From NCBI GenBank assembly GCA_017307505.1, contig JAFKEE010000018.1:246737-310736 (forward strand): a DNA stretch of 64,000 nucleotides, read 5' to 3'. Within the stretch, counting starts at the first letter, position 1, and the number at the start of each line of letters is the position of its first letter. This document shows positions 22,107 to 27,082 of this stretch, piece by piece. The notes below the pieces were generated by a model. It made no database searches and had not been told where the DNA came from. It worked only from the letters and a program-made list of their open reading frames with translations. The DNA is from Acidobacteriota bacterium (GTDB lineage: Bacteria; Acidobacteriota; Terriglobia; Bryobacterales; Bryobacteraceae). Both the position numbers and the translations under genes were made by a program.

Positions 22107-22697
22107 ATGACGCACGAAACCGAATCGAGCCTGGACCGCCGGAGCCGCCGGAGCCGCAAAATGCTGCAGACGGCCCTGGACAAGTTGCTGCAAAATAAGG
22201 ATTTTGAGCAGATCACGGTACAGGACATAGCGGATGAGGCGGAGCTGAACCGGGCCACGTTCTACGACCACTTCGGCGACAAATACTGCCTGTTGGAAAG
22301 CCTGGTTGGGGACCGGTTCCAGGAACTGCTGGCCGAACGCCATGTGCGGTTTGACAACACCTGTTCCACGGCGCTAGAGGCCATGGTCCTGGCGGTGAAC
22401 GATTACCTGACGAAGTTGCAGGGATCCGATGGCAAGCGCCCGCTGGAACCACACACAGAACGGGCGATTATCGCGGTGGTCCGCCGTATCTTATTGGATG
22501 GGTTGAGGAAACACCAGCCATCAGAAGAAGCGCCGACCGAGATGATCGCGGCCGCGGCGAGTTGGGCGCTCTACGGCATGGTGAAGGAATCGAGGCGTAT
22601 GGCCGACGGCGGTAAGCCCGAAGAGATGGCCGACACCGTGGCGATCCTGCTGACCCCGATGCTGCGGCTGATTTACGATCCGGATACAGAGGATTGA
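22107..22697 (+). CDS. TetR-family transcriptional regulator
   Basis: 196 residues. The N-terminal DNA-binding domain is clear: RSRKMLQTALDKLLQNKDFE, ITVQDIADEAELNRATFYDH and FGDKYCLLESLVGD. The C-terminal half is helical, as expected for a TetR ligand domain, and ends DPDTED. It lies divergent from a DoxX-like membrane protein, with several symmetric ACAnnTGT sites between them. Its 3' end comes within seven bases of the 3' end of an unusual tRNA gene on the other strand. Confidence 0.93.
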   Translation: MTHETESSLDRRSRRSRKMLQTALDKLLQNKDFEQITVQDIADEAELNRATFYDHFGDKYCLLESLVGDRFQELLAERHVRFDNTCSTALEAMVLAVNDYLTKLQGSDGKRPLEPHTERAIIAVVRRILLDGLRKHQPSEEAPTEMIAAAASWALYGMVKESRRMADGGKPEEMADTVAILLTPMLRLIYDPDTED

Positions 22698-22703
22698 GCA
22701 GGA

Positions 22704-22797
22704 TGGAGACCGGTCTCGGAATCGAACCGAGCGGCAACCCGTTCGGGATGCCCGGCGGGTTTGCAGCCCGCGAGGAGCCCAGCCCCTTCTACCGGCC
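22704..22797 (-). tRNA. Type II tRNA, anticodon GCA (Cys identity), long variable arm
   Basis: 94 nt including an encoded CCA (22706-22704). Acceptor stem GGCCGGT (22797-22791) pairs with ACCGGTC (22714-22708), one G-U pair, with U73 at 22707, the cysteine discriminator. The D arm is AGGGG-CTGGG-CTCCT, preceded by a 3-nt linker AGA, so the near-universal U8 is missing. Anticodon arm GCGGG-CTGCAAA-CCCGC gives anticodon GCA (22764-22762). The variable region is 23 nt and can fold (CGG/CCG outer, CCC/GGG inner, GAAC loop). The T arm CTCGG-TTCGATT-CCGAG is perfect. Normal bacterial tRNA-Cys is type I, about 74 nt; a long arm and a non-U8 core recall tRNA-Sec, whose usual anticodon is UCA. It is probably a minor Cys or Sec-like tRNA. 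Confidence 0.82.
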
Positions 22798-22860: not shown

Positions 22861-23904
22861 ATGCCGCTGATGGGATCTTTGTATGGCCGCTGGATGAGCC
22901 AGTGGGAAGAACGCCTCTGTTTTGCCGCGACCAATCGCGTGGTCCGGCCATTCGAATGGGGGCTCGATTGGTCCCAACGCTGGCCCATTGCGGACCGGGT
23001 GCATCAGAACGGCGATTCGCCGCTGGAGTACCTGAAGAAGATCAACCGGGCGGCGATCGAGCACAGCGACGACTTCTTCCGCCATCGCACTCCGAGCGAC
23101 TACCACCTGAGCGGCAACTTGTTGCGCTTCAGTTCGTGCGTTCAGACGCGCTATCCGGAGAACAATGTGGTGCACGGACAGTGGTTTCCGGGGAAGAATC
23201 CCAAGAAGGCCGTGCTGGTGCTGCCGCACTGGAACGCTCCGCACGACGCCCACAATGCACTGGCCCGCGGGTTCCAGAAGTTTGGCGCGAGTGCACTGCG
23301 GCTGAGCCTGCCGTATCACGACTACCGGATGCCGGCCGAGTTGCAGCGGGCCGATTACGCCGTGAGTTCCAACGTCGGCCGGACCATCGATGCGACGAGG
23401 CAAGCCGTGCTGGATATCCGCTGTGCGGCGGACTGGCTGGAATCGCAGGGGGTTGAGAAGATCGCGATTGTCGGTACGAGCCTCGGGTCCTGCTATGCCT
23501 TCCTGGCCAGCGCCCACGATTCACGCTTCCGCGTGAACGCGTTCAACCACTGCTCGACTTACTTCGCCGACGTGGTCTGGACTGGCTTGTCCACGATCCA
23601 CGTCAAGCAGGGTCTGGAAGGCCAGGTGGACCGGGAGACGCTGCGCGAACTCTGGCTCGCGATCAGTCCGACGGTCTACTTCGACAAGTTCAAGGCGCAG
23701 AAGAACAAGTCGCTGTTCCTCTACGCCAAGTACGACACGACGTTTCTGCCGGAGCTCTCGAAGGAAACAATCCAGATGTGCGATGCGTACGGGCTGGACT
23801 TCAAGAAAGTCGTGTTGCCGTGCGGGCACTATACGCTGGGCGAGTCGCCGTTCAAGTTCATTGACGGGTATCAGTTGATCAGTTTCGTTCTGAAGAACCT
23901 GTAG
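22861..23904 (+). CDS. Alpha/beta-hydrolase (abhydrolase_18-like)
   Basis: 347 residues. The nucleophile elbow IVGTSLGSCYAF (about 203-214) gives Ser in GxSxG. The acid is probably in FLYAKYDTTFLPEL and the His in PCGHYTLGESPFK. The N-terminal 90 residues are specific to this family (ERLCFAATNRVVRPFEWGLD). The fold resembles the DUF2048/abhydrolase_18 group, whose substrates are unknown. No signal peptide. The start is not well fixed, since no Shine-Dalgarno is seen before 22861; ATG 22870 is possible. Upstream is the tRNA gene on the opposite strand. Confidence 0.8.
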   Translation: MPLMGSLYGRWMSQWEERLCFAATNRVVRPFEWGLDWSQRWPIADRVHQNGDSPLEYLKKINRAAIEHSDDFFRHRTPSDYHLSGNLLRFSSCVQTRYPENNVVHGQWFPGKNPKKAVLVLPHWNAPHDAHNALARGFQKFGASALRLSLPYHDYRMPAELQRADYAVSSNVGRTIDATRQAVLDIRCAADWLESQGVEKIAIVGTSLGSCYAFLASAHDSRFRVNAFNHCSTYFADVVWTGLSTIHVKQGLEGQVDRETLRELWLAISPTVYFDKFKAQKNKSLFLYAKYDTTFLPELSKETIQMCDAYGLDFKKVVLPCGHYTLGESPFKFIDGYQLISFVLKNL

Positions 23905-23912
23905 CCGACTCA

Positions 23913-24872
23913 CTAGTCCATGATGCCGTGGATCTTCATGGCCACCAGGTCGTCGATGGAGGCTTTGCGGATGCCGCGATCCTGGACTTTGCGGATGAAT
24001 TCGGGGCTGACGCCGTGGATGCGCATGGCTACGAGCTGATCGATGCCGGGGTGGCCGTAGCCCAGGTCGGAAACCTGTTTCATGAACTCGGGGGTGACAC
24101 CGTGGATGCGCATGGCGACCATCTGATCCAGCGACACAGAGTTGTAGCCCTGCTTCTTCAGGTCCCGGGCAAACTCCGGCGTCACGCCATGAATGCGGAG
24201 GGCGACTAGATTGTCGGGTTTGGGGTCGTAGCCCATGTCCTTCAAGCTCTTCGCGAACTCGGCGGTGACGCCGTGGATGCGCATGGCCACAAGGTTGTCT
24301 CCGGAGAGATTGCTGGTGCCAAGGGTCTTCATTTCCCGCACATACTGGCCGGTCACATTGTGGATGCGGAGGGCGAGCAGCATGTCCTTGTTCCGGATCT
24401 GGACGCCTTCGCTCTTCAGCTCCTTCACATAAGCCGTGGAGACGTCGTGAAGAGCCATGGCGAAGACGAGGTCATCCGAGAGTCCGTCGAAGCCGAGAGA
24501 GCGCATGTTCTGGAGAAAGGCGGGGTTCTGGGTGAAAGTGAACGAGCCGCCGCCGGTGCCGGCCTGCAGGGTGCCGGAGCACTCGATGCGCCCGGCTTCG
24601 CGGGCGATGGCAAAGCGGACCGGGCTGGAGGCAGCCTTGAGCTGGGCGGCCGTGAGTCCGGTGAGCTGGTTCAGCTTCCACGAGTTGGAGCTGTTCATGT
24701 TGCTGTGCTCGGTCCGGCGAAAGAGCATCAGCTCCACTTCATCGGCCTGATTGGAGGGGCTGATGGCCCAGCCGCCCTGGATGGTGGAGGCGGCAGGCGC
24801 CTTCTGAAGCAGCCCCGCGCAGAGGAGCGCGGCTGTGAGCACACTGGTAGCCAGTGCTTTCCTGAGAGTCAT
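23913..24872 (-). CDS. Secreted protein with 28-29-residue tandem repeats
   Basis: 319 residues. A signal peptide (TSVLTAALLCAGLLQKAPA) is followed by a beta-rich region of about 90 residues and then about seven tandem repeats of 28-29 residues. The consensus is DQLVAMRIHGVTPEF followed by about 5 residues, then LGY and a short linker. The same repeat forms the C-terminal part of the M56 peptidase encoded 40 bp upstream on the same strand, so the two genes are related by domain duplication and are probably cotranscribed with blaI. Function is unknown; a periplasmic partner or decoy of the membrane peptidase is an inference. Confidence 0.75.
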   Translation of the reverse strand: MTLRKALATSVLTAALLCAGLLQKAPAASTIQGGWAISPSNQADEVELMLFRRTEHSNMNSSNSWKLNQLTGLTAAQLKAASSPVRFAIAREAGRIECSGTLQAGTGGGSFTFTQNPAFLQNMRSLGFDGLSDDLVFAMALHDVSTAYVKELKSEGVQIRNKDMLLALRIHNVTGQYVREMKTLGTSNLSGDNLVAMRIHGVTAEFAKSLKDMGYDPKPDNLVALRIHGVTPEFARDLKKQGYNSVSLDQMVAMRIHGVTPEFMKQVSDLGYGHPGIDQLVAMRIHGVSPEFIRKVQDRGIRKASIDDLVAMKIHGIMD

Positions 24873-24912
24873 TGCGTTGTCCTTTCCGTGACCGGAGTTT
24901 CTGAGCGGGCCG

Positions 24913-26691
24913 CTATTCCTTGTCGAGCAGGCCGAACTGCTTCAGCTTCACCAGGCGATCGAAGTCGAGGTTCTTGAAGCCGTGCTTCTGGGCCTGCCGG
25001 ATGAAGTCGGGCGTGATGTTGAAGATGCGCATCTCGATCACCTGGTCAGCTGAGGGGATGCGGTAGCCGAGCGCCTCCACCGCCTTCACTTCCGCGACGG
25101 TGGCGTTGTGAATGCGCAAGGCGATGAGTTTGTCGATGTCCAGATCCTGGATACCGGCCTGTTTCCAGGCGGCGGCGAATTCGGGGTCAACGCCGTGGAT
25201 GCGCATGGCGATCAACTGGTCGAAGCTCGCCTTGCCGTAGCCCAGTCCATTGAGGGCGCGGGCGGTGTCGGGGGTGAGGCCGTGAATCTTCATGGCAACG
25301 GCGTTGTCAGCATCGAGCTGGTAGCCGAGCTGTTTCATCGCCGCGATGCTGGCCGAATCGACCCCATGGATCTTGAAGGCTACGAGTTGATCCAGCGACG
25401 GAGACCAGCCGAGGCCCTTGATCTCGTGAATGAACTCGGGGGTGACGCCGTGAATGCGCAAGGCGACGAGCTGGTCCGGGTTAGGTTGGAAGCCTTCGGC
25501 GCGGATGGACTGGATGAAGTCCCCGGTGACCCCATGGATCTTGAAGGCGACCATCTGATCGACGGTGAGATCCTTGACGCCCGCGCGTTCGAGGTTGTCG
25601 AGGAATGTCTCGCCGTTTGCATTCGAAGGTTTGGGGGAAGGGCTGGGTTTGGGCGCCGGTTGCGCGGTGGGTTTGGGCGCCGGTTGGACGGCCTGCGCCG
25701 CGAAGGGCAGGACCCTGGCGGAGACGCGCAGGGAGGGGGCGGCCCAGACGGCCAGTGTCACCGCGAAGAGTCCGCAGACGGTGAGCCAGAGCGCGGCCGG
25801 TGCCGTGCGCGCAGGCTGAGGCAGGATGAGGCGCTCGATGCGCTTGAGAAGAGAGCCTCCGCTGGCCGCCATGGCTAAGGCGGGCATCTGAAAGCGGAGT
25901 TGCTCGAGGTCGGCCAGAGCGCGGGCGTAGACGACCGGGTCGCCGCAGACCTGCACGGCGATGTCGTCGCAGCAGTTTTCGCGCTCCTGCCGCATGCAGC
26001 GGCCCACCCACCAGACGGCGGGGTGGTAGAAGAAGAGCGTCTCGACGGACGTCTGCAGCAGGTTGACGAGGTAGTCGTGGCGCAGGATGTGGGCGAGTTC
26101 GTGCGCGAGGAGAGCTTCCACCTGGCCCGGTGTCAATTGGGTGAGGGCGCTCAAGGGGATCAGGATGACCGGCCGGAACCAGCCGACGACCGCAGGCACA
26201 TCTGCAATGGCCGATTCATAGAGTCGGATGGGGCGGCGCAGGCGGAGGCGTTCGGCTAGGATATGCACGCTGCGCTGCCACTGCTGTTCGACAGGCCTGA
26301 TGGCGATGCGTCGGTAGCGCTGAAGGATGGTCCACTGGCCGAGCATGCGGAGGCTGAGAAGAAGGACTCCGCCCATCCAGGCGTAGGAGAGCCAAGGGAG
26401 GAAGTCGCGATTGGAGTCGGCGAACGCGCGTGCCGTGTGCAGGGTGGGAGCCAGGGCCGCCGCGACAGAGGCAGCCGGGGGAAGGGAGGAAGGTGCAGCG
26501 GTCGAGGGCGTCAGGTAAAGGAAGGTCGCGAGCCCGCAGAGGGGCATGGCCAGCACAGCAACCGCCGCGGCTGCGTAGCGGGCGCGGGCCGACGATGAGG
26601 CGAGAAGTCGCCGTGCCAGTGCGAAGACGAGCGACAGCAGGGTGCCCTGCCAGAGGAAATGGATGAGGGTCCAGGCCAGAGTGTTCAACAT
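24913..26691 (-). CDS. BlaR1-type M56 membrane metallopeptidase with C-terminal repeats
   Basis: 592 residues from ATG 26691, preceded by GGAAGG. Transmembrane segments lie near 8-28, 38-60, 98-118 and 299-318. The cytoplasmic zinc protease motif HELAH is at 197-201, with E238 (RQERENCCDD) as likely third ligand. In BlaR1/MecR1 the region after the last segment is a penicillin-binding sensor; here it is a Pro-rich linker (about 337-360) and about 7.5 copies of a 28-29-residue repeat (DQLVALRIHGVTPEF-type). By analogy, signal sensing outside activates the protease, which then inactivates the BlaI repressor encoded one base upstream. The ligand is unknown and there is no beta-lactamase here. 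Confidence 0.92.
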   Translation of the reverse strand: MLNTLAWTLIHFLWQGTLLSLVFALARRLLASSSARARYAAAAVAVLAMPLCGLATFLYLTPSTAAPSSLPPAASVAAALAPTLHTARAFADSNRDFLPWLSYAWMGGVLLLSLRMLGQWTILQRYRRIAIRPVEQQWQRSVHILAERLRLRRPIRLYESAIADVPAVVGWFRPVILIPLSALTQLTPGQVEALLAHELAHILRHDYLVNLLQTSVETLFFYHPAVWWVGRCMRQERENCCDDIAVQVCGDPVVYARALADLEQLRFQMPALAMAASGGSLLKRIERLILPQPARTAPAALWLTVCGLFAVTLAVWAAPSLRVSARVLPFAAQAVQPAPKPTAQPAPKPSPSPKPSNANGETFLDNLERAGVKDLTVDQMVAFKIHGVTGDFIQSIRAEGFQPNPDQLVALRIHGVTPEFIHEIKGLGWSPSLDQLVAFKIHGVDSASIAAMKQLGYQLDADNAVAMKIHGLTPDTARALNGLGYGKASFDQLIAMRIHGVDPEFAAAWKQAGIQDLDIDKLIALRIHNATVAEVKAVEALGYRIPSADQVIEMRIFNITPDFIRQAQKHGFKNLDFDRLVKLKQFGLLDKE

Positions 26692-26692
26692 A

Positions 26693-27082
26693 TCAGCGCC
26701 TTCCTTTTTCAGCTTGATCGAGCAAACGGCGGATCTTATCCAGTTCGCCAGGGGTTGCGCGGTTGCTTTCGAGGGCGCGCATGGCGAGTTCCAGGGCCGA
26801 GCCGCCAAAGGCGCGCTGGGCGAGATCGCGGACGAGTTCGCTCTGGGTGGCTTCGCGGGGGACGGCAGATTCGTAGACGTGGACGCGGTGCTGTTCGCGG
26901 CGGGTGATCAGGCCTTTGTCCATCATGATCTGCATGAACTTCAATACGGTGGTGTAGCCGGTTGGTTTCCTGAGAGAGAGCTCTTCGTGGACTTCGCGAA
27001 CAGTGGCGGCACCTTTGTCCCAGAGAACGCCGAGGATTTCGAGTTCGGAGTCTGTGGGGCGGGAGCTGCTGGGTCGTGGCAT
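26693..27082 (-). CDS. BlaI/MecI/CopY-family repressor
   Basis: 129 residues. The winged-helix domain reads PTDSELEILGVLWDKGAATV, REVHEELSLRKPTGYTTVLK and FMQIMMDKGLITRREQ, a standard BlaI pattern. The C-terminal 50 residues form the dimerisation region that partner proteases cleave. The stop is followed after one base by the start of the M56 peptidase gene. Its own promoter lies inside a large palindrome, so autoregulation is very likely. The predicted transcription start coincides with the A of the ATG at 27082, implying a leaderless message. Confidence 0.93.
   Translation of the reverse strand: MPRPSSSRPTDSELEILGVLWDKGAATVREVHEELSLRKPTGYTTVLKFMQIMMDKGLITRREQHRVHVYESAVPREATQSELVRDLAQRAFGGSALELAMRALESNRATPGELDKIRRLLDQAEKGRR

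Follow-up and report, generated by a model that had tools for sequence, protein, structure and literature searches.

The 64-kb stretch of acidobacterial DNA that we analysed, hereafter called the window, carries on its minus strand what is confirmed to be a real tRNA gene. Its RNA has the body of a selenocysteine tRNA (a D stem of 6 bp, a D loop of 3 nt, no U8 and a long variable arm), and this body is combined with the cysteine identity elements GCA and U73 and with an acceptor/T branch of the 7/5 type. Judging from the sequences, we put the probability at roughly 55% that we are dealing with an additional tRNA-Cys(GCA) on a tRNA-Sec body, related to the selC* group and with a 7/5 branch, which was probably acquired horizontally and would serve as a minor cysteine isoacceptor charged by CysRS. 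The gene, its parts and its two neighbours lie in the window as follows.

22704..22797, minus strand: whole gene of the Sec-shaped tRNA-Cys(GCA), 94 nt including CCA (ARAGORN, Rfam RF01852, relatives, covariation)
22791..22797, minus strand: 5' strand of the acceptor stem, positions 1-7 (fold and clade alignment)
22788..22790, minus strand: linker AGA, with A8 in place of U8 (clade alignment)
22773..22787, minus strand: D arm of the selenocysteine type, 6-bp stem and 3-nt loop UGG (fold and alignment)
22755..22771, minus strand: anticodon arm, 5 bp, loop CUGCAAA, anticodon GCA at 22764-22762 (ARAGORN and alignment)
22732..22754, minus strand: variable region of 23 nt, long arm (fold and alignment)
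22715..22731, minus strand: T arm, 5 bp, canonical loop UUCGAUU (fold and alignment)
22708..22714, minus strand: 3' strand of the acceptor stem (fold and alignment)
22704..22707, minus strand: discriminator U73 and encoded CCA (sequence)
22107..22697, plus strand: TetR-family regulator gene, convergent with the tRNA and 6 nt from its 3' end; a neighbour only
22861..23904, plus strand: alpha/beta-hydrolase-like gene with sub-cut-off Pfam matches only, divergent from the tRNA; a neighbour

In the 64 kb, ARAGORN called a single tRNA, this tRNA-Cys(GCA) (minus strand, 22704-22797). The acceptor stem (GGCCGGU/ACCGGUC, 7 bp) includes a G2:U71 pair, and the minimum-energy fold is the described cloverleaf, with a folding energy that is unremarkable for the composition (z = -1.61; 12 of 200 shuffles were equal or better). 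A preliminary description of this DNA had noted the GCA anticodon, U73, the long variable arm and the lack of U8, which the sequence and ARAGORN bear out, as well as the 7/5 pairing of acceptor and T arms, the canonical T loop and anticodon arm, the encoded CCA, the variable region of 23 nt and A8, all of which check; the selenocysteine-type D arm was missing from it. Scored against covariance models, as that description had proposed, the tRNA has its best Rfam match in RF01852, the tRNA-Sec model, with 46.2 bits (E = 2e-8 in a search of 301 bases). This narrowly misses the gathering score of 47, and at gathering thresholds Rfam gave no match in the window; from the 46 places that RF00005, the model for tRNAs in general, picked out in the whole genome the window tRNA was absent. 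The RF01852 E-value, together with the covariation in five helices described below, argues that the structure is beyond chance. A promoter and terminator scan returned 0 and 0.

The genome of the window (G000, 9.39 Mb in 75 contigs) also carries an ordinary tRNA-Cys(GCA) (L048), with a short D stem and a short variable region, and an ordinary tRNA-Sec (L062) with the anticodon UCA and G73. The UCA tRNA was identified with ARAGORN, since RF01852 is unspecific when applied loosely: at E 0.001 it matches all 200 genomes searched in the family and all 14 controls, and over its cut-off 183 of the 200 and 5 of the 14. Profile searches for SelB, CysRS and SelA, each over 16 chosen genomes, gave one of each over the curated cut-off in G000 and in three genomes with relatives of the tRNA (G100, G145 and G124); in a fourth, G072, which is 74% complete, there was one SelB, one CysRS and no SelA over the cut-off. 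No second SelB or CysRS over the cut-off was found in G000. The normal tRNA-Cys, tRNA-Sec(UCA), SelA and SelB that the preliminary description had wanted searched for are all present, and with both ordinary tRNAs and a single SelA, SelB and CysRS over the cut-off, the window gene is thus an extra tRNA. A minor Cys tRNA, one of the earlier suggestions, is the best fit, considering U73, GCA and the two ordinary tRNAs in the same genome. CCA is encoded in the window tRNA as it is in all 47 other tRNA genes of G000.

A BLASTN search of 200 family genomes recovered four further full-length relatives, two in the same genus (G100 with 92% identity to the window tRNA and G145 with 87%) and two in other genera (G124 with 84% and G072 with 81%). 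At E 0.1 there were matches in 92 of the 200 genomes, mostly short and partial, and five were full length with the own genome included. A covariance model, R1, found the same five carriers among 237 family genomes at E 1e-9, but it was built from the five members that it recovers and their scores are no independent support; it gives the window tRNA 106.2 bits, the own tRNA-Sec 43.2 and the own tRNA-Cys 34.0. The family can do without the gene: at E 1e-9, 232 of the 237 genomes have no match. G100 and G145 repeat the order of the window, with the hydrolase-like gene on one side of the tRNA and the TetR gene on the other, so that synteny is kept in three species of the genus. The hydrolase has been retained in five further species of this genus, at 78-81% identity, but the tRNA is missing beside it and so, over the 1.5 kb fetched, is the TetR gene; in a sixth, G173, the hydrolase is present only as a fragment at a contig end. 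The surroundings are different in G124 and in G072, where a distant hydrolase homologue (49%) lies 3.5 kb off. Elsewhere in the window, at 23913-26808, two neighbouring proteins, one of them with a BlaR1-type peptidase domain, have in common repeat runs like 'VAMRIHGVTPEF'.

A pattern for Sec-like tRNAs with GCA matched two of 396 sampled genomes of the phylum, the window's own and G300, and over GTDB genomes it matched at least 119 stretches, the record titles of those listed naming Nitrospirae, deltaproteobacteria, Bacillota, Actinobacteria and Cloacimonadota among other groups. After 25 of the listed 119 had been set aside as chance matches or not Sec-like and three repeats had been removed, 91 Sec-like loci were left, including one from Acidobacteriota (L186) and eight from Cloacimonadota with G73. 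The 25 were sorted out by hand from stem scores, and some with fair acceptor stems (L134, L151, L202) may be other tRNAs. The match in G300 (L281) is a Sec-like GCA tRNA with C73 by a simple rule and an unusual linker, and R1 gives it 71.5 bits. In the Sec-like GCA tRNAs of Cloacimonadota (L129, L137, L161, L177, L178, L207, L217 and L219) the same kind of rule gives G73 and leaves 1.72 unpaired; these could be selenocysteine tRNAs with a cysteine anticodon, or odd cysteine tRNAs, and in the genomes of L177 and L137 there was no tRNA-Sec(UCA) among the loci fetched. Of 15 genomes that carry a Sec-like tRNA with GCA, ten had a tRNA-Sec(UCA) among the matches listed, and an incomplete assembly or a gap in the set of fetched loci may account for its absence from the remaining five. 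One tRNA-Sec-like sequence with a UCA-type anticodon loop (L332, in G632) is without an ARAGORN call.

The closest sequences outside the family, among the matches listed, are three from Planctomycetota MAGs (L214 with 80%, L158 with 76% and L205 with 75% identity) and one from a Vicinamibacteria MAG (L186, 79%), and a gene of Thermosulfurimonas dismutans (L124) reaches 78% by a cruder cut. Within the clade formed by the family members, L186 and the three Planctomycetota genes the identity to the window tRNA is 75-92%, and the nearest sequences found are all other Sec-like GCA tRNAs. The best of 41 tRNA-Sec(UCA) reaches only 66%, the own tRNA-Cys 56% and the own tRNA-Sec 52%. Since the closest sequences are Sec-like GCA tRNAs elsewhere and the two ordinary tRNAs of the genome are distant, arrival from another lineage is favoured over local duplication of either of them, which we reject at such low identities. 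Horizontal transfer probably brought the gene into a few Bryobacterales-like Acidobacteria, a view that we take from similarity and not from a tree. A phage-borne copy was also considered and rejected: ten viral contigs fit the pattern (L233 and L235 are repeats), and the Sec-type D arm was found in none of the eight that were scored.

The alignment of the nine clade members (window included: five from the family, one from Vicinamibacteria and three from Planctomycetota) leaves out two distant 7/5 genes, L126 (C73 by the simple rule) and L218 (U73). In all nine, the T loop is followed by 12 nt on the 3' side, and position 8 is an A or a G that faces a G (A.G or G.G) and cannot pair, which makes the branch 7/5; an 8/4 pairing, with position 8 opposite that G, was discarded for all nine. 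The same alignment shows that the cloverleaf is kept by compensatory changes. Out of 279 cells in 31 counted pairs, 96.1% are standard pairs, and 14 of the 31 pairs have changed on both sides, across all five helices; none of 500 shuffles reached either value. Structures slid by 1-3 columns are 33-53% paired, a comparison in which the scored structure is favoured, as it was drawn from the same sequences. The variable arm changes most, with double changes in seven of its eight pairs and 90.3% of its cells paired, while the D, T and acceptor stems are fully paired in all nine. U73, GCA and G1:C72 are invariant, and the pair at 2:71 is G2:U71 in six members and G2:C71 in three. Single-sequence folds of the other eight members give z from -0.60 to -3.02, the cloverleaf of L214 not being its minimum-energy fold, and the RF01852 gathering score is passed by three of the eight (L214, L205 and L079) and missed by five.

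Some copies in the clade look less well kept. Mutations that break the stems in relatives had been named in the preliminary description as something to look for, and the outcome is divided: alongside the compensatory changes in all five helices, the anticodon stem of G124 is broken, with G30.G40 and A31.C39, and this copy lacks CCA and gets no ARAGORN call. At least this one copy may be decaying. The mismatch A31.C39 occurs in three of the nine (G145, G124 and L158), and CCA is encoded in two, the window and G145, and absent in the other seven, including G100 and G072.

The group of known tRNAs that comes closest is selC* tRNA-Cys (Mukai et al. 2017, as described in the review PMC7609411), which has a modified 8/4 branch with a bulged A51a. 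These tRNAs are like the window tRNA in the Sec-like body, the long variable arm, the GCA anticodon (or UCA there), U73 and the role as an extra cysteine isoacceptor, but the window clade has a plain 7/5 branch with no bulge, and we therefore see the clade as a variant beside selC* and not as a member of it. The selC* phyla named in the review are Firmicutes, Thermodesulfobacteria, Nitrospirae and Proteobacteria, without Acidobacteria or Planctomycetota. Only some selC* groups have a companion selB* or cysS* (PMC7609411), so that it does not strictly define the kind; the window genome has one SelB and one CysRS over the cut-off, with neither of them adjacent to the tRNA and no SelB within 4 kb of it. 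Bacterial tRNA-Sec (RF01852) shares with the window tRNA the 6-bp D stem with a short loop, the lack of U8 and the long variable arm, and differs from it in UCA and G73 (own copy) against GCA and U73 and in a branch of 13 bp (PMC7609411) against 12 bp. Allo-tRNAs, which are likewise extra tRNAs with a Sec-like look and a 12-bp branch, are 8/4 or 9/3 with serine or alanine identity according to the same review, and the preliminary description's pointer to unusual tRNAs of this kind in Acidobacteria is inapplicable to a 7/5 tRNA. The ordinary tRNA-Cys of the genome agrees in GCA and U73 and differs in its short D stem and short variable region; the window tRNA has 23 nt in that region, and A8 where the ordinary class has U8. 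The words YedF, SelD, double-cubane and Planctomycet are absent from the main text of PMC7609411, and in titles and abstract beginnings we found nothing on a 7/5 form, on members in Acidobacteria or Planctomycetota, or on a link to YedE or YedF; the original selC* paper may say more.

That link comes from the genes around the 91 listed loci, where we searched for relatives of nine reference proteins by tblastn within 4 kb. At least 48 of the loci have a selenium-type gene in this range, against none of the 25 chance matches of the pattern, a weak control that is unmatched for taxon or lifestyle. Many loci are pieces of at most 8 kb, and the counts for each neighbour are thus lower bounds: SelB at 23 loci, YedF at 21, the double-cubane reductase at 13, the activase at 12, YedE at 6, SelD and an SclA-like protein at 3 each, and SelA at 1. 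Activases, reductases and desulfurases of these families also occur outside selenium metabolism, and L118 is counted on reductase and activase alone; the SelB calls rest on tblastn, save two with TIGR00475 support (L116, L171). A LysR gene is a neighbour at ten loci, and both of those tested are the selenium-associated regulator NF040786. The genes for YedE, YedF, LysR_Se, Sec lyase and SelD are reported to co-occur with selenium use, with those for 2-hydroxyglutaryl-CoA dehydratase and activase among their associates (PMC5322559). The surroundings of L218 comprise SelD, double-cubane reductase, activase, tRNA, SclA-like protein and YedF; NCBIfam gives SelD, the reductase, the activase, YedF and a cysteine desulfurase family protein there (the SclA match is sub-cut-off), and at L126 it confirms YedE, with a YedF match below the cut-off.

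The branch type varies over the wider set as well. From a table judged by eye, most of the deltaproteobacterial genes among the matches listed are 8/4 with a bulge, and most of those from Nitrospirae are 8/5, with 13 nt and a paired position 8. Twenty-one genes combine 12 nt, a paired position 8 and an interrupted T stem, and 17 of these have a SelB neighbour in a first neighbour list; a second list lost L154 and gained L112 and L191. Among the matches listed, SelB lies within 4 kb of none of the 11 genes with a 7/5 branch versus 23 of 85 other loci, which is suggestive only of a tie between SelB neighbourhood and branch type.

Two of the three Planctomycetota members of the clade are among the 48 loci. 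Around L158 (as L335) YedE, a Cys-rich/TusA open frame (the Cys-rich stretch and the TusA domain share one frame), DsrE, the tRNA and a methionine-synthase-domain protein follow on one strand. At L214 (as L336) the tRNA is preceded, at a distance of 40 nt and in the same orientation, by a Cys-rich gene, while YedE and TusA follow about 1.7 kb downstream of the tRNA and are encoded on the opposite strand. The small Cys-rich protein in both (L336:270-596, L335:10381-10659) has the motif CxxC...CGH...P.CxACLA, and the L336 copy has no Pfam match at E 0.01. The gene adjoining the tRNA at L335:7851-9425 encodes a methionine-synthase domain of the cobalamin-independent type, and its match to TusA is below the cut-off. 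L186 and L205 have no selenium-type neighbour in the fetched surroundings, and 56 nt downstream of the former ARAGORN finds a tRNA-Val(CAC) (L186:6029-6103).

These neighbourhoods, above all those of L218 and L158 and the 48 loci set against the 25, speak for a specialised cysteine tRNA linked to selenium or sulfur that is still such in Acidobacteria, and that would supply Cys-tRNA for a dedicated use (a SelB-type delivery, or a tRNA-dependent enzyme of selenium/sulfur trafficking) instead of bulk translation. For the window tRNA itself we think this unlikely, as no selenium-type gene lies within 4 kb of any of the five Bryobacterales-like loci or, at E 1e-3, anywhere in the window, and YedF had no match at E 0.001 in any of the 16 family genomes searched (8 of 14 control genomes match, below the cut-off). 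With the minor isoacceptor that we prefer, U73 and GCA, which are CysRS identity elements (PMC7609411), would lead to charging with cysteine by the one CysRS of the host. The tRNA would then read UGC and UGU. SelB prefers the longer acceptor branch of tRNA-Sec, and because its own branch is 12 bp the tRNA would be taken by EF-Tu rather than by SelB. The Sec-like core would have been inherited from ancestors tied to selenium metabolism, with no dedicated SelB serving it here.

It is rather unlikely that the acquired gene is now a relic or nearly neutral. The patchy spread in 5 of 237 family genomes, the missing CCA in G100, G072 and G124 and the broken anticodon stem of G124 would all agree with this, but against it stand the D, T and acceptor stems, which are fully paired in every one of the nine members and include double changes, and the synteny in three species of the genus. 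Since the long variable arm is a feature of SerRS, a pure cysteine identity of the window tRNA is not certain. Serine insertion has been described for allo-tRNAs in PMC7609411, and a Sec-like body with such an arm could be charged by SerRS and put serine at cysteine codons, as a mistranslator of the kind proposed for allo-tRNAs. We find this improbable, since the cysteine elements U73 and GCA are invariant in all nine members and the branch is neither 8/4 nor 9/3. A tRNA-Sec that reads cysteine codons, another of the earlier suggestions, could point to the RF01852 match and to SelA, SelB and tRNA-Sec in the genome, but it is very improbable against U73 (the own tRNA-Sec has G73), the 7/5 branch of 12 bp and the presence of an ordinary tRNA-Sec(UCA); a tRNA-Sec with merely a changed anticodon is rejected by U73 and the 12-bp branch. 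The regulatory or other non-translational RNA that had also been considered is least probable of all: the tRNA gene does stand alone in the window genome, but the invariant anticodon loop, T loop and U73 and the covarying cloverleaf fit a working tRNA.

The similar tRNAs beside selenium-handling genes in other phyla hint at a selenium-linked second cysteine tRNA. A tentative and still doubtful extension is that many phyla have a second, Sec-shaped cysteine tRNA that belongs to operons of selenium and sulfur trafficking and makes up a separate pool of Cys-tRNA for a selenium-linked purpose, and that the clade of Acidobacteria and Planctomycetota is its 7/5 branch, which would probably be independent of SelB and would still function in the organism of the window. 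The selenium-gene setting, with concrete clusters in several phyla, makes the purpose of selC*-like cysteine tRNAs testable. The window tRNA joins a Sec-type core to a 7/5 branch of canonical length and to cysteine elements, alongside tRNA-Cys and tRNA-Sec in one genome, and it offers a means of testing which elements of the Sec body are relevant to SelA, SelB, EF-Tu and CysRS.
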